NCBI GenBank assembly: GCA_946481035.1 | Contig: CAMLNK010000074.1 | Location: 1-9,873 of the forward strand | From: an uncultured Dyadobacter sp. | GTDB taxonomy: Bacteria > Bacteroidota > Bacteroidia > Cytophagales > Spirosomataceae | DNA: 9,873 bases | Direction: 5' to 3' | In this document: one piece after another, positions 1 to 9,873 of the stretch | Layout of the letters: each line of letters begins with the position of its first letter | How positions within the stretch are numbered: position 1 is the stretch's first letter | Translations under genes and position numbers: made by a program | The notes under the pieces: model-generated | Database searches by the model: none | What the model saw: only the letters and a program-made list of their open reading frames with translations | What the model was told of the DNA's origin: nothing

Positions 1-754
1 CCAGTTCGCGCGGTGCATCGAAAACGCGGCGGATGGTCAGTTCGGGCAGGGATTTCAATCCGGCAACGAGCCGCCTCAGCAATGTCTGGTTGACGCCCCT
101 CGAATCCTCGATGAAGAGTATTTTAAGCTGCGTTGCGCCAAAAATAGCCAACCTTTCCTTTTTGGTCCGGATGGATGTAATGCAGGCGGTCGTTTGGCGG
201 TCGGTCAGGTTATTGACGTTTCTGGCCAGCTTATACTCTACTTTTGTGGTATCCAGCAGGAATTCGGGGCCGTTTTCCTTCCTTTTTACAATGGCGTACC
301 CGTATTTTTGTCCAAAAGGAATAGCGTGGGTGTATTTGTAATCGATGAGCGTATCGCCATCATTATTGACAAATCCATATCGCCCGCTATTAAAGGCTAA
401 TGCAAATCTTCCATTGTAAAAATAGAAGGCCTTGATCAGATTCTGGTTTTTCTCGGCAACTAATTGGAGTGACGCAAGCGCCGTGGAAATCTCGGTTTTT
501 TGCGCGTCTATCTTCGCGTTTACTTTTTTGAGTACGGAGTGGAAGCTGCCCGTGAGGTCTTCACAAACCAGCAGCCCTGCTTCGCAATAGTCGCGTGCGT
601 GGGTGAGTTCACCTTTTTCGAAAGATTTTTTTGCGGAGGCCAACAAATCCTCGCAGGAGTGGTCGGGCTCCGGAACCGCAACTTTTTTTACTTTGGTCTG
701 GGCGTGGGCAAGCGTTCCCACAAGCAAAACCCATAGCAGGCAGATCCTTTTCAT
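1..754 (-). CDS. Secreted WG-repeat protein, C-terminus cut by window edge
   Basis: This partial gene gives 251 codons from the ATG at 754 before running off the window. Residues 1-19 look like a type I signal peptide (Lys-Arg, then a hydrophobic core, then an AHA-Q cleavage site), so the protein is probably periplasmic or exported. Residues 30-105 are helical and contain a TPR-like stretch (ASAKKSFEKGELTHARDYCE). Residues 115-160 match the WG-repeat pattern: RYGFVNNDGDTLIDYKY, then a GYA.V continuation. Residues 200-245 are leucine-rich and could begin an LRR-like segment. The start is supported by the signal peptide and by its ATGA overlap with the stop of the upstream NTPase gene, which implies translational coupling. 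WG repeats are usually taken as binding modules, so a ligand-sensing role for the neighbouring NTPase and protease is inferred. The specific function is unknown. Confidence 0.75.
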   Translation of the reverse strand, partial: MKRICLLWVLLVGTLAHAQTKVKKVAVPEPDHSCEDLLASAKKSFEKGELTHARDYCEAGLLVCEDLTGSFHSVLKKVNAKIDAQKTEISTALASLQLVAEKNQNLIKAFYFYNGRFALAFNSGRYGFVNNDGDTLIDYKYTHAIPFGQKYGYAIVKRKENGPEFLLDTTKVEYKLARNVNNLTDRQTTACITSIRTKKERLAIFGATQLKILFIEDSRGVNQTLLRRLVAGLKSLPELTIRRVFDAPREL

Positions 755-2655
755 CGTTCAAGGTATTTGATTTGCTGTTCCAGTGATTTCAAGCTATCGA
801 GCAATTCGGGATTGTCCTGAAACTTGCCGAGGCCTTTTTTTAGGATCGCCATTTCCAGGTCATACTTCTGAATGTTGTGCATCCGGCTCGCGGCGGAAAT
901 GTATTTTCGGATTTCAATGCTGTCCCTTTGCTTTTCGGCCGCCCTTCTTTTGTTCAGGTCAGACCTGCTTTTATCCAGTGCAGCCGATACTGTGTTTTTT
1001 TGGGCTTCGATCGCCTTGTTGCTCCGGATCAGGGCTTCTGCTGCCCGCTGTTTTTGCATCAATGCCTCCTGTGCGCTTTCTTCCGCCTCTGTCGCACGTG
1101 CAGCCAGCTTATTAGCTTCAATCCGCTGTACATCCGCAGCCTCTTTTAGCTTCTCGGACTTATCTTTTTCGGTTTCGGCAATGGCTCTTTGCGATTCGGC
1201 ATTCAGGTAAAAGACCACGGCCATCAGGCCCGCCAGCAGTGCAATTACGGTTACTACATACGCCTTCCTTTTCTCCTTTTCAGCGGTTGCCAAAGCCTCT
1301 GTCAGTTCCCGATTTCTTTCTTCCTTTTCAATCGCTTCCCGCTGGGCCTTACTGAGTTTTTCCTGGTGGTACCGGTTGCTTATTTCTTCATACTCTTTCC
1401 AATGGCTTTCGTAATTGGGGATTCTTTCAAGTTTTGCGCAGTAGATATTCGCTTTGGCAATGTCGTTTTCTGTTAATAACCGGGTTTCCGACTTGTTTTC
1501 GGCAATCCAGCGATCGTAATCGCTCTGTAACGATCGTACAAATGCTTTGAATTCCCTGCTTTCCAGCGACCGTAGTTCGTTGATTTGCTTGGCGACCACG
1601 TCATGAACCGGCTCGTAGCGGCTTACATCGTCTTCATCGGCGCGAAGCAAACTGAGATTTGAAAAGTAAATAAGCGCCTTTTTGATATCCTGCTCACCGG
1701 TTTCCAGGCTGATCATCAGCTCGGACACCTTCCGGGATTGCTTGGTACCCTCATCGGTCGCAAACTCGTCCAGCAGGCGTGAGGCAAAATCGTCGGGCAG
1801 GTCCATAGCCAGAAATTCGATCCTGGCTTTTTCCAGCATGGATTCGATAAAGGTCTTCAAGACATTGCCTAACCTGCCCACCGCGGTAATTCCGAGTTCG
1901 GTAAATGTGATTTTGGGAGGAGTCTGGGTTTTGCATTCCTGCGCGTACAAATAATGCAGGTAGATTTGAAGATAGGGAAGGTGTGCGGCCTGCGTTCCCT
2001 CTTTGACTTGCAGCAGTATCTTCCGCGCTGTTTCCAATCCGTCTTCCAGCTGCACTTTTGCGGATTTGCTCATATCCACGATCACCGAACGGGTGGTTTC
2101 GTCCTTCATAGGCTCCACCCGAAACCGCTTATCGAATAATAGAGGGACAAACTGCTCATACTCGTACAAATGACCGATGTATTCCTCCCTGATCGAAAGG
2201 ATCAGCTTGCACGGTATCGGTAAGGAAAGCAGCTCCTGAATGTCCTTGAAAAACGCCACTCGTTCCTCGTGGTCGCCCAGTGTGAAGATTTCTTCAAACT
2301 GGTCAAATACAATGTAGACGGGAATCCAGCGATTTTCGTAGACATCGGTAATAGCCGCGGCCAGACTGGAAATCTCGGTTTCGTCCAGCAGGCGTTTCAA
2401 CTCCTGACGAAACGAGTGATTGATATTGTCGCGCCTGCGTACCGACACCCTCGACCAGTCGGTCAGCTTGAAAACCTTCGGCAGACCCGCATTAATAATG
2501 CTCGTCTTGCCCGTTCCGGACGCACCATACAACAGTACCAGGCGCGTTTGCTGAAGTAAATTGTACAGCGCAAAAATTTCCGGGTCCCTTCCGAAGAAGA
2601 TATCCTTGTCTGAGGAGCTATAAGGCTCAAATAGTTTGAACGGGCTATCTGCCAT
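751..2655 (-). CDS. Membrane-anchored nSTAND-type P-loop NTPase with coiled coils
   Basis: This complete 634-residue protein is a STAND-class NTPase, a family of NTP-driven oligomerising switches used in signalling and immunity. Residues 8-25 carry a typical nSTAND1 entry motif (PYSSSDKDIFFGRD). The Walker A is GASGTGKTS at 44-52 and the Walker B is VYIVFDQFEE at 113-122. An arginine motif LSIREEY lies at 153-159, and HLPYLQIYL at 225-233 is typical of the family. A winged-helix-like segment with YEPVHD ends at 352. Charged helices at 370-464 lead to one transmembrane segment at about 465-484, preceded by EKEKRK, which suggests a cytoplasmic NTPase. After it come an Ala/Glu/Lys-rich coiled coil (485-580) and a short TPR-like end. 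There is no WD40 or TPR array of the kind many relatives carry, so sensing may be delegated to the exported protein encoded next. The ATG lies 3 nt after the CHAT stop codon. Confidence 0.88.
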   Translation of the reverse strand: MADSPFKLFEPYSSSDKDIFFGRDPEIFALYNLLQQTRLVLLYGASGTGKTSIINAGLPKVFKLTDWSRVSVRRRDNINHSFRQELKRLLDETEISSLAAAITDVYENRWIPVYIVFDQFEEIFTLGDHEERVAFFKDIQELLSLPIPCKLILSIREEYIGHLYEYEQFVPLLFDKRFRVEPMKDETTRSVIVDMSKSAKVQLEDGLETARKILLQVKEGTQAAHLPYLQIYLHYLYAQECKTQTPPKITFTELGITAVGRLGNVLKTFIESMLEKARIEFLAMDLPDDFASRLLDEFATDEGTKQSRKVSELMISLETGEQDIKKALIYFSNLSLLRADEDDVSRYEPVHDVVAKQINELRSLESREFKAFVRSLQSDYDRWIAENKSETRLLTENDIAKANIYCAKLERIPNYESHWKEYEEISNRYHQEKLSKAQREAIEKEERNRELTEALATAEKEKRKAYVVTVIALLAGLMAVVFYLNAESQRAIAETEKDKSEKLKEAADVQRIEANKLAARATEAEESAQEALMQKQRAAEALIRSNKAIEAQKNTVSAALDKSRSDLNKRRAAEKQRDSIEIRKYISAASRMHNIQKYDLEMAILKKGLGKFQDNPELLDSLKSLEQQIKYLER

Positions 2656-2658
2656 GAT

Positions 2659-4500
2659 TTACGAGGCGATAAAAAAGGTCTTAAACTGGCTCAGATAAGT
2701 GTTGAGTTCTCCCGCGTTGGTGAGCAGGTGGTTCTGCCGGTAAGTTTCCGCGACAATATCATCGATATGCGCGAGATCGGAACCGGACGGGTCCTGGTCA
2801 TTGAACCGCCAGATCTTCTGAGGGTTCTTCAATGACATAAAATAGAAGCACGGATTCTGGACTTTCCGGATCGAAAGATCGGTGACCATCTCATCACTGA
2901 AAAAGCCAAGGAACAAATAGAGGTCTATCTCGGTCGCGATCTGCCTGATAAACACATTCCGGTCGAGCAGAAAAGGGAACAGGTTAATGGAAGGCGTGGA
3001 TGGGTCGTAGTCGAATTTGGAATAACACAAAATCGATTTGTTTTCCATCGGATCCGAGTTTCGCATAAAGCTGCTTCCGCCATCCTCGGATACGGCCACC
3101 AATTGTGACACGCTGCTCGCGAAGTATTTATCGACATGCCTGAAATTAACCGTATCCACATCTCTTACGGATGTCAGAATGTTTTCAACCACAAATGAGA
3201 AGTATTGGAGCCCGCCTATGATGTGCTCCTGGGACGCATAACACCTCTCCACCGCTTCTTCCTGACTGAACCTGATATGACTCCAGAAGTAATTTTTGTT
3301 AACATCGAAGAAGGCGCAGGCCCCCTGAAATGCACCGCTGGTCAGGTAATCCTTAATATTTTCAATTTTCGGAATAATGTTGGCGATTCCGGCGCTGTGC
3401 AGGATCTCTATCCCGTTTTGAATCACCACGGCATAGTCGGTAAGCGAATGATTGAGCCTGTTGCTGGTGAGAAATGCCCGTATCGGACTGAATTTCTCCT
3501 GCCTCGACAGATCGATGGCTGTTTTGTTCTGCCATATCTGGCTAAGGAGCAGGATGGCGCTCAAATGCAGTTGGGTTTCAAAAAACAGGGCGTAGTCGTA
3601 CAGAAGCTGGCGGTGGTATTCGTCGATGCTGCCGTCATCGGCGGGGATCCCGTTGATCTGCTGCAGTCGTATTCCCAACGGGTAGGGCAGGATTTCGAGC
3701 AGGCTTCTCACCATGATCTTATCGGCGGGTTCGCCCTGGAATTCGATCGTCGAAATGATGTTTTTATATTTGGTACTGATCGGGCTGGTCTGGTTTTTCA
3801 ACGCGATCAGCATTTTCGAAAGCAATCTGGTATGCCGTACCCCGTCTTGCGGTTGCCCGGCTGCCGAGAGCGTGATAGGCAACTTGTATTCCGCCGAATC
3901 GGGCAGCGAGTATAGCCCCCATTCGAGCTCATCCTGCCCCGCGCCGGGAGGCGAAAGCAGCAGCCCGCGATTGATCACCAGGGAAATATCCATTTTCAGT
4001 AACCGGGTATCTTTCTGGATTTCATCGAAAGCCGCGTTGACGGTCCGCCCGAGTGATAGGTAATTGTAAAACTGGTTGGCGAGCCAGGAGGCTTTGGTAT
4101 CCTCAACCGGCCGTGAAGTAGCGATTACATAAGGAATGCCCGCATCGTGAAAGAACTGAACCTGTCCTTTTGACGAGCAACCGTTGATAAACACCAGTTT
4201 TAAAGTTTTGAGTGCTTTAAGTTTATCGGCGAATGACGCCGCGTCGGCTGCATTATCACCAAATACGAGCTTGGAGTCACTCGCATGGCCCGAAAAGTGT
4301 ATAATCTCGACAGAGCGGCCGGGGATATTCAGCTCCGCTATGATGTCAGGGATACTGGTCTGCGGGATCAGGGACACTTCGTATTCCCGTCTTTCTACCG
4401 CATTAAGCAGGTGCTGAATACCCTTACATTCCTTATCCAGCTCGCCCAGAAACGCCTGGCTCTGATTATTCGCATAGAAAATAAGTACAGTAGGTTTCAT
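2659..4500 (-). CDS. CHAT-domain caspase-like protease with uncharacterised C-terminal region
   Basis: This 613-residue protein has an N-terminal CHAT domain (caspase/HetF-associated-with-TPRs, clan CD cysteine peptidase) at about 1-185. The catalytic dyad is visible: His72 in IIHFSGHAS, following a hydrophobic strand, and Cys108 in LVFINGCSS. The later strand IPYVIATSRPVED at 122-134 and the segment around ANQFYNYLSLG fit the end of a caspase-like fold. No signal peptide or transmembrane helix is seen, so it should be cytoplasmic. Residues 225-445 are mainly helical (around LPYPLGIRLQQ and the helix after it). Residues 490-613 form a separate mixed region (INLFPFLLDRNVF, EIDLYLFLGFFSDEM). 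I cannot assign either to a named family. They may bind the partner NTPase or keep the protease inactive. It is the first gene of the operon. The start at 4500 is the only in-frame ATG near the conserved first strand (PTVLIFYA). The substrate is unknown, and no gasdermin-like gene is in the window. Confidence 0.88.
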   Translation of the reverse strand: MKPTVLIFYANNQSQAFLGELDKECKGIQHLLNAVERREYEVSLIPQTSIPDIIAELNIPGRSVEIIHFSGHASDSKLVFGDNAADAASFADKLKALKTLKLVFINGCSSKGQVQFFHDAGIPYVIATSRPVEDTKASWLANQFYNYLSLGRTVNAAFDEIQKDTRLLKMDISLVINRGLLLSPPGAGQDELEWGLYSLPDSAEYKLPITLSAAGQPQDGVRHTRLLSKMLIALKNQTSPISTKYKNIISTIEFQGEPADKIMVRSLLEILPYPLGIRLQQINGIPADDGSIDEYHRQLLYDYALFFETQLHLSAILLLSQIWQNKTAIDLSRQEKFSPIRAFLTSNRLNHSLTDYAVVIQNGIEILHSAGIANIIPKIENIKDYLTSGAFQGACAFFDVNKNYFWSHIRFSQEEAVERCYASQEHIIGGLQYFSFVVENILTSVRDVDTVNFRHVDKYFASSVSQLVAVSEDGGSSFMRNSDPMENKSILCYSKFDYDPSTPSINLFPFLLDRNVFIRQIATEIDLYLFLGFFSDEMVTDLSIRKVQNPCFYFMSLKNPQKIWRFNDQDPSGSDLAHIDDIVAETYRQNHLLTNAGELNTYLSQFKTFFIAS

Positions 4501-4596
4501 AATTCCGGAAACTTGGTGCCTGTGATTACTATTTTCAGTGAGTGTGATGAAGCCAGGAGACTGCGTAGGCGAAGAATATTCGGATAGGTTAGTAGT

Positions 4597-4642
4597 ATTA
4601 ATTTAAACAAAAAATGACAAATGGAGGCTTTTGTTTATTAAT
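4597..4642. repeat. AT-rich inverted repeat, 14 bp per arm with a 2-nt bulge
   Basis: The left arm is ATTAAT-TT-AAACAAAA (4597-4612) and the right arm is TTTTGTTTATTAAT (4629-4642). They are perfectly complementary over 14 bp apart from the two extra T residues in the left arm. The uninterrupted core is TAAACAAAA / TTTTGTTTA (4604-4612 and 4629-4637), enclosing a 16-nt centre. It lies about 100 bp ahead of the CHAT start and 187 bp ahead of the regulator start. Because both genes point away from it, a terminator role is unlikely. An operator for a dimeric regulator or an AT-rich promoter element is more plausible. No known operator is recognised. Confidence 0.5.
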
Positions 4643-4776
4643 CGGTCAGATTAGGCGGGAATTGGGCGCCCGTTAAGTAAGTTCTCCGGGCGATCTGCCG
4701 CTTATTCGTTGCACGCATTCCCGAAATGCAGTAGTTTCATCCTCCTTAATCATTTAAAAATCAGTACGCTGGGCAC

Positions 4777-4794
4777 AATATCGAGCCTGATATT
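4777..4794. repeat. Short perfect dyad AATATC-N6-GATATT
   Basis: Two 6-bp arms (4777-4782 and 4789-4794) are perfect reverse complements around the centre GAGCCT. The dyad ends 34 nt before the ATG of the hybrid regulator, so it would lie in its 5' leader or core promoter. It could be an operator half-site pair or a weak mRNA hairpin. Arms this short can arise by chance in a 300-bp region, so this is only a candidate. Confidence 0.3.
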
Positions 4795-4828
4795 AAAGAT
4801 TCGATGAAAGTCCGGGGTAATCTAGCAC

Positions 4829-7800
4829 ATGAAGAGAATAATGCTGCTTTTCGCGCTGGCGATGGGCCTGAATGCAGCGGCGCAAAAGCCTGAATCGCCG
4901 CTGGCCCGGGTATGGCAGCAGAGTCTTCCTTTCATTACCAACTATTCTACCAACGAATACAAGGCCGCTTTTCAGAACTGGGCGCTCGTCCAGGACGGAA
5001 ACGGGCTCATTTATGCCGCGAATAACTCGGGAGTGCTCGAATACGACGGCGTGTCGTGGCAGCTCATTCAAACGACCGAGGGCAACCCCGTACGCTCGCT
5101 TGCGAAAGATGCCAGCGGGCGCATTTACGTGGGCGGGTCGGGCGAGGTAGGTTACCTGGCTGCCAATGCCCAAAACAGGATGGTTTTCCATTCATTGAAA
5201 AACAAACTTCCCCGCAGCGACTGGAATTTCGGGAATGTGTGGTTCACATTTGCCGGTAACGGGTCTGTGTATTTCGTGTGCGATCTGCACATCCTCGAAC
5301 TGGTGAAAGGGCAGTTCAGGGTTTGGAAAAGCGATGTCGGGGCGTTCGGGTTTGCCTGGCTCATCAACGGTGCATTGTATGTGAGTACGAGTGAGAAAGG
5401 TTTGTTGAAAAAAGAAAAGGACGGGTTGAAACTGGTCGAGGGAGGGGAGGCGTTCAAAGGAATGGGGCTTACCGGCCTGCTGCCCTACGAGGGGAACAAG
5501 TTGCTGGCGGTGGGGCTCGATAAGGACTTTTTTATCTACGACGGGGCAAAACTCGAACCGTTTATGAAAAACGGTCAGAGGGTCCGGATCAGGGATGCGG
5601 TTTATCACGGAGTGCGGCTGCGCAATGGGGATTATGCCCTGGCCACCACAGGTTCGGGGCTTTACCTGATGGCGCATGACGGGATGATCCGGAACAATTA
5701 CTGCCGCAAGGAAGGGCTGTCGAGCGACGCGGTTTATTCGGTTTTTGAAGATGCGGAAAAGGATTTGTGGCTTGCAACCGACAATGGGATCAGCCGGCTT
5801 GAAATCAATTCGCCGCTCCGGATACTGAACGAAAATCATGGCCTCGATGAAAACCCGATGGACATCGAGGTATTCAATAACAAGCTGTTTACTACGAATA
5901 GCAAGGGGCTTTTTGAGCTGAATAATGTGCCTTCGCAAGGTTTGCCGAAACCTTATTTCAGGAAAATACCGGGGATCGACAACCTCACGATGCATTGCCA
6001 GGTGTATGGTAATGAGTTGATTGTGTCTAACTACGACGGCGTTTTCGTGCTTGACCAAAAAGGAAACAAATCACAGATCGCCCGGGAGAACGTCGTGCGC
6101 GTGGAAGAATCCCGGCCGGCGCAAATGCCCGGACATTTGCTGGTAGGGCTGGAAGGGAACGGGCTTACCGAACTGCTTTTTTCCAACGGGAAATGGGTGC
6201 AGGGCGGCAGGCGCGACGATATGAAGTTTTATTCGGAAAGCTTTGCGCGTGCGGGCGATGGGACGATTTTTATCAACAGCCGCCGGAACGGGATCTATGA
6301 AATGGCCTGGCAGACACCCGGAGCGGCACATTCCTTGCGGGATGCGTTCAAACTGATACACCACGGGCCTGAAAACGGGCTGTCTTCGAATAAAATCCGC
6401 TGGCTCGAAAGGGTCGGAAATACCGTGTACGCGTCTACCGACGAGGCGATGCACCGGTTCAACCCCGATAAGCGGGTTTTTGAAGTGGATTCGCTGCTTA
6501 CGGCCGGGGTGGCGCCGTATAGAGGTGGGTGGATCAATGAAATCGTTGCAGGCCGCGATGGGACGATGTGGTTTACCTTATACCACAATTACCAGAGCCA
6601 TGTCTTTGAGTATGGTGACAACCGGTTGAAGAGATTGCCGGTTTCGGGCAGGCTTTCGGACGCGCTCATTTCGAAAGTACACGATAATGGCGACGGGTTT
6701 ATGCTTTTCGGGTCGAACAAATGGATAGTCCTTTTTGATCGCAACTTGAAAACCGGGGTTGATAAGCCGTTTAAAACGCTCATCCGCCAGGTTTCGATCG
6801 ACCAGGATTCGCTGGTCAGTTTCCGGGACGGCCAGTCGGCGCCGGAAATGGCTTATGGCCACAGGCTGCGGTTCCAGTTTGCATTGCCGAGATATGATCT
6901 TTCAAACAAAAATCAGTTCCGGTACTTTCTCGAAGGTTTTCACGACGAATGGTCGGCCTGGTCGGGTGAATCGTTTGTGGACTTTACCAATTTGCCGGAA
7001 GGAGATTATGTGTTCCGCGTGCGCGGCATGAACGTATATGGCCATGCGGGAGAGGAAGACCGGCTGGCATTTACGGTCCTTCCGCCGTGGTACCGCACCT
7101 GGTGGGCGTTCAGCATTTATGCGCTGCTGCTGGGCGGACTCGCAGTAATGCTGGTGCGCCTGCGGGAAAGAAAGCTGCAAATGGAGAAGCTCGCCCTGGA
7201 AAACACCGTGCGCGAACGGACGGAGAAAATTATGCTCCAAACCGAAGAGCTGAAAGAAATGGACCGGATGAAATCGCGTTTTTTTGCCAATATATCGCAC
7301 GAATTCCGAACACCATTAACACTTATTCTGGCGCCGCTGGAAGAAGAACTAAGCAAAAAGCCACCCGCCGAGCAGGATAAGCTCTTAATAATGAAGCGTT
7401 ACGCCAACCGGCTGCTTGAACTGGTGAACCAGCTGCTGAACCTCTCGAAGCTGGAAGCCGGCAAAATGGAACTACAAGTGCAAAAGGTGGAATTGCGGCA
7501 GTTTCTCAGCGTGCTGTCATCGTCGTTCGACTCGCTGGCGCAGCATAAGGGGATCGCTTTTGAAAAAACGGTCGGCGTGCCCGACGGGCCTTTCTGGTTT
7601 GACCCCGACAAGCTGGAAAAGGTGATTATTAACCTGCTTTCCAATGCATTCAAGTTCACACCGGCAAGCGGCCTGGTGAAATTTGAGGCGAATATGGAAG
7701 CGCAATCCGGCACACAAATACTTTGCATTAGGGTATCGGATACGGGGCGCGGCATTGCGCCCGATGAGCAGAAACAGGTATTCGAATCGTTTTACCAGGC

Positions 7801-8851
7801 CCGGCAGACCGTCGAGAACCAGGACGGCGGGACCGGGCTGGGCCTTGCATTTGCGAAGGAACTCGTCAAACTGCATAACGGAAGCATCTCGCTTCAAAGT
7901 GAGATAGGTAAAGGTTCGGTTTTCGCTATCCGGGTACCGGTTAGTCGGGAAGCGTTTGATGCGGGGCAAATCGTTGAGCCCGCGTTGAGCGGATACACGC
8001 TGCCGGCTCTACCAGCCGTATCGCCATCGTCGGAACAAAATGAGCGAAAGCCCCATGAACCCAAAAGCCGCGGCGCCGCGCAGCGCGAAACGGTGCTGAT
8101 CGTGGAGGATAACGCCGAACTCCGCGATTATATGGCATCATTACTCGAAAACGACTACATCATTTACAAGGCACCCGACGGCGCAGAGGCGCTTGCCTGC
8201 GCACGAAAGGTGTTGCCGAGCCTGATCATCAGCGACCTGATGATGCCCAGAATGGATGGTATGGAGCTTACCGCGAGCATCAAGTCCGACGAACGGACCA
8301 GTCATATCCCGGTGATTTTGCTCACTGCGAAAAGTGGCCGGGAGTCGCGGATCGACGGGTTGAAAACCGGTGCGGACGATTATCTCACCAAACCATTTTC
8401 GGTAGAAGAGCTCACAGTCCGGGTCGCGAACCTGATCGAGCTGAGAAGGAAACTGGCGGAACGTTACCGCGAACGTATCCGGGTACACGTGACTTCCGCG
8501 GAGGAAATGTCGCTCGACGACAAATTTTTGATGAAGGCCAAAGAGATCGTCGAGGCGAATATGGAGGATGTGTTATTCTCGGTTGAAAAAATGGCGGAGG
8601 AAATGAGCCTGAGCCGTACCCAGCTGTTGCGTAAGCTGAAAGCGCTTACCGGCCTCGCCCCAAATGACTTTATCCGCGACCTGCGCCTGCAAAAGGCAGC
8701 GGAAATGATCCGTCAAAAGGCTGACACGATCACCCAGATCGGCTATGCGGTGGGTTTCAATGACCAATCGTATTTCAGCAAAAGCTTCAAAAAGGAGTTC
8801 GGGGAAACCCCTACGGAATACTCCGCAAGAATTTCCCAAAAAGAAGGGTAA
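4829..8851 (+). CDS. Hybrid two-component system regulator (propeller sensor, kinase, receiver, AraC HTH)
   Basis: This complete 1340-residue protein combines a whole two-component pathway in one chain, as in Bacteroidota HTCS regulators of nutrient or stress loci. A signal peptide (1-18, cut at AAA-Q) exports the sensor. Residues about 40-680 form a divergent beta-propeller, with blades such as GLIYAANNSGVLEYDG and GRIYVGGSGEVGYL and one classic blade DLWLATDNGISRL at 312-324. A Y_Y_Y domain (about 685-750, FRYFLEGFHDEWSAW) precedes the transmembrane helix at about 757-777. The kinase follows: H-box His824 (ISHEFRTPL), N-box Asn939, G1 DTGRGI at 971-976, and G2 GGTGLGLA. After a Pro/Ser-rich linker (1040-1087) comes the receiver with Glu1093/Asp1094, phospho-acceptor Asp1136, Thr1166 and Lys1188. 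An AraC-type HTH spans about 1235-1337. All catalytic residues are present, so it should be functional. The ligand is unknown. A TAG at 4823 fixes the start. Confidence 0.95.
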   Translation: MKRIMLLFALAMGLNAAAQKPESPLARVWQQSLPFITNYSTNEYKAAFQNWALVQDGNGLIYAANNSGVLEYDGVSWQLIQTTEGNPVRSLAKDASGRIYVGGSGEVGYLAANAQNRMVFHSLKNKLPRSDWNFGNVWFTFAGNGSVYFVCDLHILELVKGQFRVWKSDVGAFGFAWLINGALYVSTSEKGLLKKEKDGLKLVEGGEAFKGMGLTGLLPYEGNKLLAVGLDKDFFIYDGAKLEPFMKNGQRVRIRDAVYHGVRLRNGDYALATTGSGLYLMAHDGMIRNNYCRKEGLSSDAVYSVFEDAEKDLWLATDNGISRLEINSPLRILNENHGLDENPMDIEVFNNKLFTTNSKGLFELNNVPSQGLPKPYFRKIPGIDNLTMHCQVYGNELIVSNYDGVFVLDQKGNKSQIARENVVRVEESRPAQMPGHLLVGLEGNGLTELLFSNGKWVQGGRRDDMKFYSESFARAGDGTIFINSRRNGIYEMAWQTPGAAHSLRDAFKLIHHGPENGLSSNKIRWLERVGNTVYASTDEAMHRFNPDKRVFEVDSLLTAGVAPYRGGWINEIVAGRDGTMWFTLYHNYQSHVFEYGDNRLKRLPVSGRLSDALISKVHDNGDGFMLFGSNKWIVLFDRNLKTGVDKPFKTLIRQVSIDQDSLVSFRDGQSAPEMAYGHRLRFQFALPRYDLSNKNQFRYFLEGFHDEWSAWSGESFVDFTNLPEGDYVFRVRGMNVYGHAGEEDRLAFTVLPPWYRTWWAFSIYALLLGGLAVMLVRLRERKLQMEKLALENTVRERTEKIMLQTEELKEMDRMKSRFFANISHEFRTPLTLILAPLEEELSKKPPAEQDKLLIMKRYANRLLELVNQLLNLSKLEAGKMELQVQKVELRQFLSVLSSSFDSLAQHKGIAFEKTVGVPDGPFWFDPDKLEKVIINLLSNAFKFTPASGLVKFEANMEAQSGTQILCIRVSDTGRGIAPDEQKQVFESFYQARQTVENQDGGTGLGLAFAKELVKLHNGSISLQSEIGKGSVFAIRVPVSREAFDAGQIVEPALSGYTLPALPAVSPSSEQNERKPHEPKSRGAAQRETVLIVEDNAELRDYMASLLENDYIIYKAPDGAEALACARKVLPSLIISDLMMPRMDGMELTASIKSDERTSHIPVILLTAKSGRESRIDGLKTGADDYLTKPFSVEELTVRVANLIELRRKLAERYRERIRVHVTSAEEMSLDDKFLMKAKEIVEANMEDVLFSVEKMAEEMSLSRTQLLRKLKALTGLAPNDFIRDLRLQKAAEMIRQKADTITQIGYAVGFNDQSYFSKSFKKEFGETPTEYSARISQKEG

Positions 8852-8976: not shown

Positions 8977-9075
8977 ATGCAGGTGGCGCATAATTACCTG
9001 GATATGCTTCGCCACTACAAGTTTCAGCCACCCTTTCCGCCCCAAATTTGCAGCCTCAATCATCTATTAACATGA
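8977..9075 (+). CDS. Possible 32-residue leader ORF overlapping the next start codon
   Basis: An ATG at 8977 opens a 32-codon frame (MQVAHNYLDMLRHYKFQPPF and onward). It ends in a TGA that overlaps the ATG of the haloperoxidase-like gene as ATGA. The frame is open upstream to a TGA at 8869, but no earlier ATG is present. Such an overlap could couple translation, or the ORF may be a chance frame in the leader. It shows no signal peptide, transmembrane segment or known motif. There is no Shine-Dalgarno to help, and the composition is not strongly gene-like. I list it as a candidate only. Confidence 0.2.
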   Translation: MQVAHNYLDMLRHYKFQPPFPPQICSLNHLLT

Positions 9076-9873
9076 AAAATTTAAGAATCATGAAAAATGC
9101 AAGCGTGTTGAAACGCGTCAGACAATCGGTAATCGGGTTGCTTGGTGGTACCCTGCTTACCCTCTCGTGCACGGACCACGGAGGCCCGCAAGTTCCGGTC
9201 GAGCCGGTTGGCTCCCCGGAGGTGGTCACCTCATGGCTCACCATGCAATTGAAAATTGCGCAGGCCATGCCCGCGTCGCCGCCCGTTCATGCCCGCAGGT
9301 GGGCTTACAGTGGAGTAGCTTTGTGGGAATCGTTGCAGCCGGGGTTGCCGGGCCATCGATCGATCGCGCCGCAGCTCAACGGCCTGGCTGCATTGCCGAA
9401 GCCGTCCCAGTCGCTGAACTACTATTTCCCGGCCAGCGCCAATGCGGCGCTCGCGGCTATCAACCGGGCGATCCATCCCGGCATTTCGGCAGCCACCCTG
9501 GCCCGTATCGATTCGCTGGAAGGTGCCAACCTGGCGAAGTACCAGCAGCACCAGCAGCCGGATGTGCTCGCGAATTCCATCGACTTCGGGAAGAAAATTG
9601 CAGCCGCGGTTTTCGAGTGGTCCAAAACCGATGGCTATGATAACGCCACGCCTTATACGCCGCTCGGCGGAGCCGCGTACTGGAAGCCGACGCCACCTGC
9701 ATTTGGCCCGGGAATGCTTTCGAACTGGGGTAAGGTACGTACCATTGTCGCGAACAGCGATGCGGGAGCGGAACAGGGAGCGCCGATAGCTTATTCGGAA
9801 GATAAAACGTCGGAGTATTACAAACAGGCGGAGGAGCTCTACAACGTTTCCCAATCGCTTACGCAAGAGCAGC
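9072..9873 (+). CDS. Vanadium-dependent haloperoxidase / PAP2-family lipoprotein, C-terminus cut by window edge
   Basis: The first 267 codons are present. Residues 1-32 are a basic then hydrophobic leader ending in LTLSC, so Cys33 is a likely lipidation site, though the -3 and -2 residues (Thr, Leu) make it an atypical lipobox. A Pro/Gly-rich spacer follows. The mature part has features of the vanadium haloperoxidase-like branch of the PAP2 superfamily: PPVHARRWAYSGVALWES at 70-87, and YWKPTPPAFGP followed by NWGKVR at 203-223, matching the family's W.PTPPAF...WG pattern. The catalytic Lys/Arg/His residues that bind vanadate or phosphate lie further C-terminal and are outside the window. The chemistry (halide oxidation or phosphatase) therefore cannot be decided. 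Two in-frame ATGs (9072 and 9090) both precede the leader. It sits 220 bp after the hybrid regulator on the same strand and may be its target. Confidence 0.8.
   Translation, partial: MKNLRIMKNASVLKRVRQSVIGLLGGTLLTLSCTDHGGPQVPVEPVGSPEVVTSWLTMQLKIAQAMPASPPVHARRWAYSGVALWESLQPGLPGHRSIAPQLNGLAALPKPSQSLNYYFPASANAALAAINRAIHPGISAATLARIDSLEGANLAKYQQHQQPDVLANSIDFGKKIAAAVFEWSKTDGYDNATPYTPLGGAAYWKPTPPAFGPGMLSNWGKVRTIVANSDAGAEQGAPIAYSEDKTSEYYKQAEELYNVSQSLTQEQ

Follow-up and report, generated by a model that had tools for sequence, protein, structure and literature searches.

A stretch of 9,873 nucleotides (nt) from an uncultured Dyadobacter sp. (assembly GCA_946481035.1, contig CAMLNK010000074.1; the whole stretch is called the window below) carries three minus-strand open reading frames (ORFs) that encode a CHAT protein, a membrane nSTAND1 nucleoside triphosphatase (NTPase), and an exported WG protein. 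These three very probably form one shared device, with a sensor outside the membrane and a protease inside. The full statement, that the trio is a membrane-spanning STAND conflict switch comparable to NLRs and the apoptosome and has an immune or death role, is one that we hold at about even confidence. Comparison with relatives supports gene coupling, intact active sites, topology signals, and the exchange of both sensor and effector modules. The first-pass annotation of this DNA, made from the sequence alone, described a 3-nt gap at one gene junction and an ATGA overlap at the other, and the ORF coordinates agree. The features of the trio are as follows.

2659..4500, minus strand: CHAT protein, protease domain plus C-terminal domain; 613 amino acids (aa), PF12770 above cut-off
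3961..4500, minus strand: CHAT protease domain, residues 1-180; from the Pfam match, the alignment of relatives, and 8tl0
4285-4287, minus strand: His72 of the CHAT dyad; read directly from the sequence
4177-4179, minus strand: Cys108 of the CHAT dyad; read directly from the sequence
2668..3933, minus strand: C-terminal domain of the CHAT protein, residues 190-611; without a Pfam family, putative docking role
2656..2658, minus strand: intergenic gap of 3 nt between the CHAT and NTPase genes; from ORF coordinates
751..2655, minus strand: nSTAND1 NTPase, 634 aa; PF20703 above cut-off
2500..2526, minus strand: Walker A, NTPase residues 44-52, GASGTGKTS; from sequence and alignment
2290..2304, minus strand: Walker B region, NTPase residues 118-122, DQFEE; from sequence and alignment
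1204..1260, minus strand: predicted transmembrane helix, NTPase residues 466-484; from hydropathy
751..754, minus strand: ATGA overlap of the NTPase stop and third-gene start; from ORF coordinates and sequence
1..754, minus strand: exported WG(-LRR-TPR) protein, cut at the window edge with 251 residues visible; LRR and TPR only in full-length relatives
701..754, minus strand: signal-peptide-like start, third protein residues 1-18; from sequence and hydropathy
281..379, minus strand: single WG repeat, third protein residues 126-158; below the Pfam cut-off

Linkage of the CHAT and NTPase genes

Six relatives, three from Dyadobacter and three from Saprospiraceae, were recovered by scanning genome contigs. 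Of 48 genomes from the genus of locus L002, 3 contain close relatives and 10 others only more distant CHAT relatives; under looser criteria (E values of up to 0.001 and no demand on architecture), CHAT matches were found in 50 of 222 genomes from the L002 family and 62 of 199 from the L006 family. A further 66 stretches (17 + 49) were picked by hand from these results, mainly because they scored well and had frames of 550 to 690 aa, and the sample therefore leans toward complete two-domain proteins. After the duplicate locus L057 was dropped, 78 CHAT matches remained, 70 of them uncut and 550 to 690 aa long. The next gene encodes nSTAND1 in 67 of these 70; the three exceptions are L058, the second CHAT of L150, and L135, where 611 nt of contig are left. 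Among the eight CHATs excluded for length or truncation, nSTAND1 is next in one. No more than 20 nt separate CHAT from nSTAND1 in 60 of the 67 (median, 3), and in five Dyadobacter genomes chosen for holding such loci, 8 of the 13 nSTAND1 genes that pass the Pfam cut-off are these partners. Gene neighborhoods thus bear out the joint conservation proposed in the first-pass annotation for CHAT and NTPase, with a third part that varies.

The order effector, NTPase, sensor is conserved among relatives and also occurs within one chain, P0026, which runs from CHAT through nSTAND1 and a weak hydrophobic segment to WD40. Distances of the CHAT C-terminal domain and of the NTPase correlate at 0.94, with 0 of 2000 permutations as high, although linked genes behave in this way anyway. 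It is highly improbable that the three are only cotranscribed neighbors with no common function: the varying third-gene domain and the loci with no separate third gene would fit that explanation, but the 67/70 adjacency, the distance correlation with its caveat, and the fusions of NTPase to WG-LRR and of CHAT to NTPase speak for a functional tie. Overlapping genes in a fixed order would also suit a toxin-antitoxin-like unit in which a CHAT protease toxin, silenced by the NTPase or the sensor, is released when its neighbors are lost. We consider this improbable, given that the one-chain CHAT-nSTAND1-WD40 form and an exported third part are unlike a simple antitoxin.

Active-site residues and the NTPase

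The CHAT protein has two domains, a protease of about 180 residues (PF12770, 38.6 bits against a Pfam cut-off of 24) followed by about 420 residues without a Pfam family. His72, Cys108, and Asp134 are identical in all 67 aligned proteins, window included, and His72 and Cys108 of the window align with the GH and C of the solved CHAT chain 8tl0. This is the N-terminal dyad read in the first-pass annotation, which had named its loss across homologs as one of two observations that would count against it; no loss is seen among the 67, and one protein outside that set, described below, departs from the pattern. By its Pfam match and dyad we classify the protein as a CHAT peptidase with predicted protease activity. 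The neighboring protein likewise agrees with its earlier description as a STAND NTPase with Walker motifs and one transmembrane helix: it matches PF20703 at 146.5 bits (cut-off, 27.1), its Lys50 (Walker A) and Asp118, Glu121, and Glu122 (Walker B) are identical in 67 of 67, and hydropathy gives a single hydrophobic helix at residues 466 to 484.

Unusual arrangements of both genes were encountered. At L120:2747-7042 and L121:2803-7098 a shorter CHAT (419 aa) is followed after 3 nt by a signal-peptide-like protein of 1010 aa, TPR-rich in L120, with no NTPase between, and at L058:7975-9957 (minus strand) a CHAT-like protein carries a weak iSTAND match, both below the Pfam cut-off, with no nSTAND1 behind. 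The nSTAND1 gene of L130, L131, L137, L140, L148, and L149 is split near the same point, with a next ORF that starts (M)K-x-ELxHD-like and holds the helix in all except L137, which looks like recurrent gene fission. Left of base 149 in L134, a short NTPase ORF enters a tandem repeat with a unit of about 16 codons and stops in all frames.

Topology and exchange of the sensor

The third protein begins with a signal-peptide-like segment (MKRICLLWVLLVGTLAHA followed by Q) and contains one WG repeat (20.6 bits; Pfam cut-off, 25.6). The window edge cuts the gene, and in full-length relatives, which are 554 to 571 aa long, the WG region is followed by LRR and TPR repeats, so that "WG-repeat protein" is a partial name. 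The earlier description as a secreted WG-repeat protein therefore holds for the signal-peptide-like start and less well for the rest, which shows a single subthreshold repeat in a protein of which WG is only a part.

Forty-nine complete NTPases have a helix at positions 415 to 520, and K and R residues are more numerous before the helix than after it in 45 of them, equal in 3, and fewer in 1. For 48 of these (one lies at the edge of its stretch and was set aside), tail length was compared with the presence of a signal-peptide-like gene within 20 nt, which was found for 15 of 20 NTPases with tails of up to 200 residues versus 0 of 28 with longer tails (Fisher P = 1.4e-8, a value that ignores kinship). 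Separate sensor genes are of the WG-LRR-TPR type in L001 and L052 (Pfam) and in the window, L002, L003, and L113 (model or precomputed Pfam) and of the WD40 type in L112, L117, L118, L123, L140, L151, and L153 (twice); the separate signal-peptide gene of L055 has no Pfam match. Fused NTPase tails carry WD40 (L106, L116), WG-LRR (L124), or FGE (L128, custom model).

On an NTPase tree built by a quick method, with support only from the Shimodaira-Hasegawa-like approximate likelihood ratio test (SH-aLRT), split L113 and fused L124 are sisters (SH-aLRT 99), and split L112 and L117 group with fused L116 (SH-aLRT 100). Split and fused sensors are homologous, their top matches being 40 to 43% identical, and in L113/L124 and L117/L116 the match starts immediately after the helix, in L112/L116 ahead of it. 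The WG region of the window matches the fused protein P0066 at 39% over 140 positions, behind the P0066 helix. Since the split form has a signal peptide and the fused form sits behind the helix, the sensor is most likely periplasmic. The exported-sensor reading of the first-pass annotation thus gains indirect support, from sensor fission and fusion on the outer side of the NTPase and from the charge bias, and it loses its WG part as a constant third component, which we rejected on finding WD40 or FGE in relatives.

In three sets of relatives, the outer parts have diverged more rapidly than the NTPase core. Among the window and L001 to L003, mean identity is 78.7% for the CHAT domain, 81.6% for its C-terminal domain, and 86.0% for the NTPase core versus 58.3% for the NTPase tail and 74.7% for the sensor (first 251 residues); core and tail average 88.6% and 65.4% among L106 to L111 and 89.2% and 80.0% among L042 to L051.

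The CHAT C-terminal domain and exchange of the effector

Profile searches with the C-terminal domain gave matches in 69 of 298 genomes from the L006 family. In a phylum-wide draw, where E values of up to 1e-8 were accepted and only a few candidates were scored in each genome, 3 of 395 genomes matched, anchor genome included. We retrieved 20 loci with the domain, mostly chosen as unusual-looking, at which 16 C-terminal-domain proteins have no CHAT match. In 14 of the 16 nSTAND1 is nevertheless next; the remaining two are L158, whose contig ends before the next ORF, and L172, where a CHAT protein and then nSTAND1 follow. Pfam scans of 10 of the 16 found EAD11 in seven, LRR in one, and nothing in two, and P0024 is a further EAD11 protein with this domain. 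EAD11 thus replaces CHAT on the C-terminal domain while nSTAND1 still comes next, which makes the domain the constant partner of the NTPase, and we propose that it docks there. In P0026, nSTAND1 directly follows CHAT, leaving by eye no room for the domain. The three window proteins have no EAD domain (Pfam, E value up to 1), EAD11 being found only in the C-terminal-domain relatives.

The NTPase tree requires at least 6 changes of effector label and at least 8 of sensor label, counted with 33 of 80 rows lacking a classified sensor, WD40 sensors classified by phmmer with WD40 tails, and 3 of 10 EAD11 labels assigned by eye. As a fold for the C-terminal domain, a helical repeat gave only weak matches (best E value 0.00055, for a designed PPR protein; no single stretch passed by itself), and we therefore claim none.

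Proposed mechanism and alternatives

Beyond these patterns we infer a complex, its clustering or oligomerization, proteolysis, and a trigger, substrate, and outcome. The exported WG-LRR-TPR protein would act as sensor in the periplasm, and nSTAND1 would be anchored in the inner membrane by its one helix, with the NTPase inside and a short outer tail meeting the sensor. An envelope trigger such as an adsorbing phage, an injection machine, or envelope damage would lead to nucleotide exchange and clustering of the NTPase. Docked there by its C-terminal domain, the CHAT cysteine protease would thereby become active and cleave cytoplasmic targets, in some relatives perhaps a neighboring caspase fused to a lipase or amidase, and the cell would arrest or die. 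We tentatively suggest, as a possibility, a whole family of bacterial transmembrane inflammasomes, in which recognition of a phage or injection machine would take place in the periplasm, ahead of or during its passage across the envelope. Such systems would combine plug-in sensors (WG-LRR-TPR, WD40, or FGE), a constant membrane NTPase, and a coupling domain holding plug-in effectors (CHAT, EAD11, and others), and at some loci a cascade from CHAT to a caspase-lipase/amidase would destroy the cell.

Several observations weigh against this interpretation. The sample was hand-picked and includes near-copies (e.g., L132/L139 and L119/L150). The CHAT protein at L172:6392-8116, which lies outside the 67-protein set, has Val at the catalytic Cys position (by eye, NGV instead of the expected NGC), and so at least one relative looks inactive, perhaps serving as an inactive scaffold; directly before it lies an LRR protein with the CHAT-associated C-terminal domain, the two genes together spanning L172:6392-10468 on the minus strand. 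Five of the 20 short-tailed NTPases (L006, L126, L127, L129, and L152) have no signal-peptide gene behind them. Signal-peptide and helix calls come from simple hydropathy tests, and the helix is missing from its expected position in 16 of 67 NTPases, all of the L006 family; the next ORF contains one in 11 of these, and none was seen there in 5 (two further NTPases of the 67 are cut by contig ends). The hydropathy basis and these helix-less proteins are also what would favor cytoplasmic sensing, with the signal-peptide-like start and helix misread and all parts inside as in Avs, a reading that the excess of K and R before the helix (45 of 49) and the split/fused complementarity (15/20 versus 0/28) make quite improbable.

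The surroundings of the genes give a mixed picture as well. A caspase-like gene lies within the retrieved stretch (3 to 22 kb) in 35 of 67 loci, an association that comes with no background rate, and neither the window nor the retrieved L001 and L002 stretches contain such a gene. Caspase homologs can be numerous in such genomes (PMC3501461), and for both reasons a CHAT-to-caspase cascade is only a lead. The first-pass annotation had raised the prospect of defense islands; a PADLOC scan of 10 neighboring proteins from five loci saw none, matching two caspase-like proteins and one methyltransferase-like protein. PADLOC has no family for the window CHAT or WG protein, and the window NTPase has weak matches only (mad8, E value 0.0011; LmuB, 0.012), with no Avs model listed.

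The scarcity of defense neighbors is one reason to consider regulated proteolysis in an envelope-stress or developmental response, in which a regulator is cleaved without killing, as with Csx29 and Csx30. The topology suits an envelope-stress sensor as well as an immune sensor, and there is precedent for a CHAT protease that liberates a sigma factor (PMC10028731). Frequent exchange of sensors and effectors and faster outer divergence fit conflict systems better, however, as do EAD11 as an alternative effector, the nearby caspases, and a patchy occurrence (the close type in 3 of 48 genomes of the genus), and we judge the regulatory explanation somewhat unlikely.

Neighboring genes and other features

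Two further ORFs of the window lie on the plus strand.

4829-8851, plus strand: hybrid two-component sensor (Reg_prop, Y_Y_Y, HisKA, HATPase, response regulator, AraC-type helix-turn-helix); from Pfam, divergent from the trio
9048-9872, plus strand: ORF cut by the window edge; no match in the Pfam scan

A similar 1342-aa gene stands by eye in the same place beside the trio in L001 (Dyadobacter sp. 50-39). The flanks in L002 and L003 differ from those in the window and L001, and the trio is therefore not tied to the hybrid sensor gene.

Pfam confirmed C14 in all six caspase-like proteins scanned, from five loci, and some neighboring caspases are fused to an alpha/beta-hydrolase or to amidase and GDSL-lipase domains. 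The latter arrangement (Amidase_2, caspase C14, and GDSL-lipase) lies beside CHAT systems at L003:4886-8815 and L105:1026-4877; L003 is a close relative of the window trio, and its GDSL match is below the cut-off. An amidase-caspase-GDSL-lipase protein has already been described in Chitinophaga (PMC3501461). At L042:1-1902 (minus strand) caspase C14 and NACHT share one protein, beside a caspase-hydrolase gene next to the CHAT/nSTAND1 pair.

A mobile origin was considered and rejected, with no match in phages or viral contigs; plasmid matches were confined to two Haliscomenobacter records, with query coverage of 34% or less. The promoter pattern TTTG-(17-22)-TAnnTTTG has no match in the window, and positions 4300-5000 contain one sigma-70-like site, on the plus strand, the same number as in shuffles. 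At L006:15940-20844, the strings FQSFLFWKCADN and FNPSYSGNAPIT recur across many short ORFs; this is probably a DNA repeat array rather than genes, perhaps CRISPR.

Comparison with known systems

Avs proteins and apoptosome/NLR receptors place an effector, a STAND NTPase, and sensor repeats in one chain and sense inside the cell, and intracellular sensing is also what the bacterial NLR-like immune proteins that we know of use. Unlike Avs, the trio has a separate third gene with a signal-peptide-like start and a sensor predicted to lie outside the membrane.

The nSTAND1/EAD conflict systems set a STAND NTPase between swappable effectors and swappable sensors (PMC8195603, PMC7159879). The trio resembles them in its nSTAND1 and, among relatives, FGE (FGS) domains and in the occurrence of its C-terminal domain with EAD11 in relatives. 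It differs in that the window CHAT protein has no EAD; conversely, such a CHAT C-terminal domain and an exported separate sensor gene do not appear in EAD systems as the available text of these two papers describes them. The STAND systems associated with diversity-generating retroelements in Thiohalocapsa combine nSTAND1 or NACHT with lectin sensors, and periplasmic placement is predicted for one of their STAND targets (PMC10907252). Those systems vary the sensor by reverse transcriptase and differ in layout (PMC10907252); no such element was seen here, though no search for one was made.

Metacaspase-NACHT-WD40 and metacaspase-FGE proteins join a caspase-fold protease, a STAND NTPase, and a repeat sensor in the same order as the trio, and some carry helices (PMC3501461). 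They differ in being one chain with C14 instead of CHAT, and the available text of that paper describes no split operon with an exported sensor. Csx29, a CRISPR CHAT protease that cleaves Csx30 and thereby frees a sigma factor (PMC10028731), and SAVED-CHAT (8tl0; PMC11417357) share the CHAT fold and His/Cys dyad with the window protein; they are switched on by RNA or a cyclic nucleotide, whereas the window CHAT is putatively switched on by a membrane NTPase.

No named system with this layout was found in the literature searched, from which subscription papers were mostly absent, so that absence from print is not established. The parts belong to known families in an NLR-like order, and we did not find the split operon, the exchange at both ends, or the unnamed C-terminal domain described there. 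If our interpretation is correct, a constant membrane STAND core with swappable sensors outside and swappable effectors inside would be the same switch wired differently. It makes testable whether bacteria fire a caspase-like protease from an envelope event, and the C-terminal domain of the CHAT protein offers a handle for finding more effectors.

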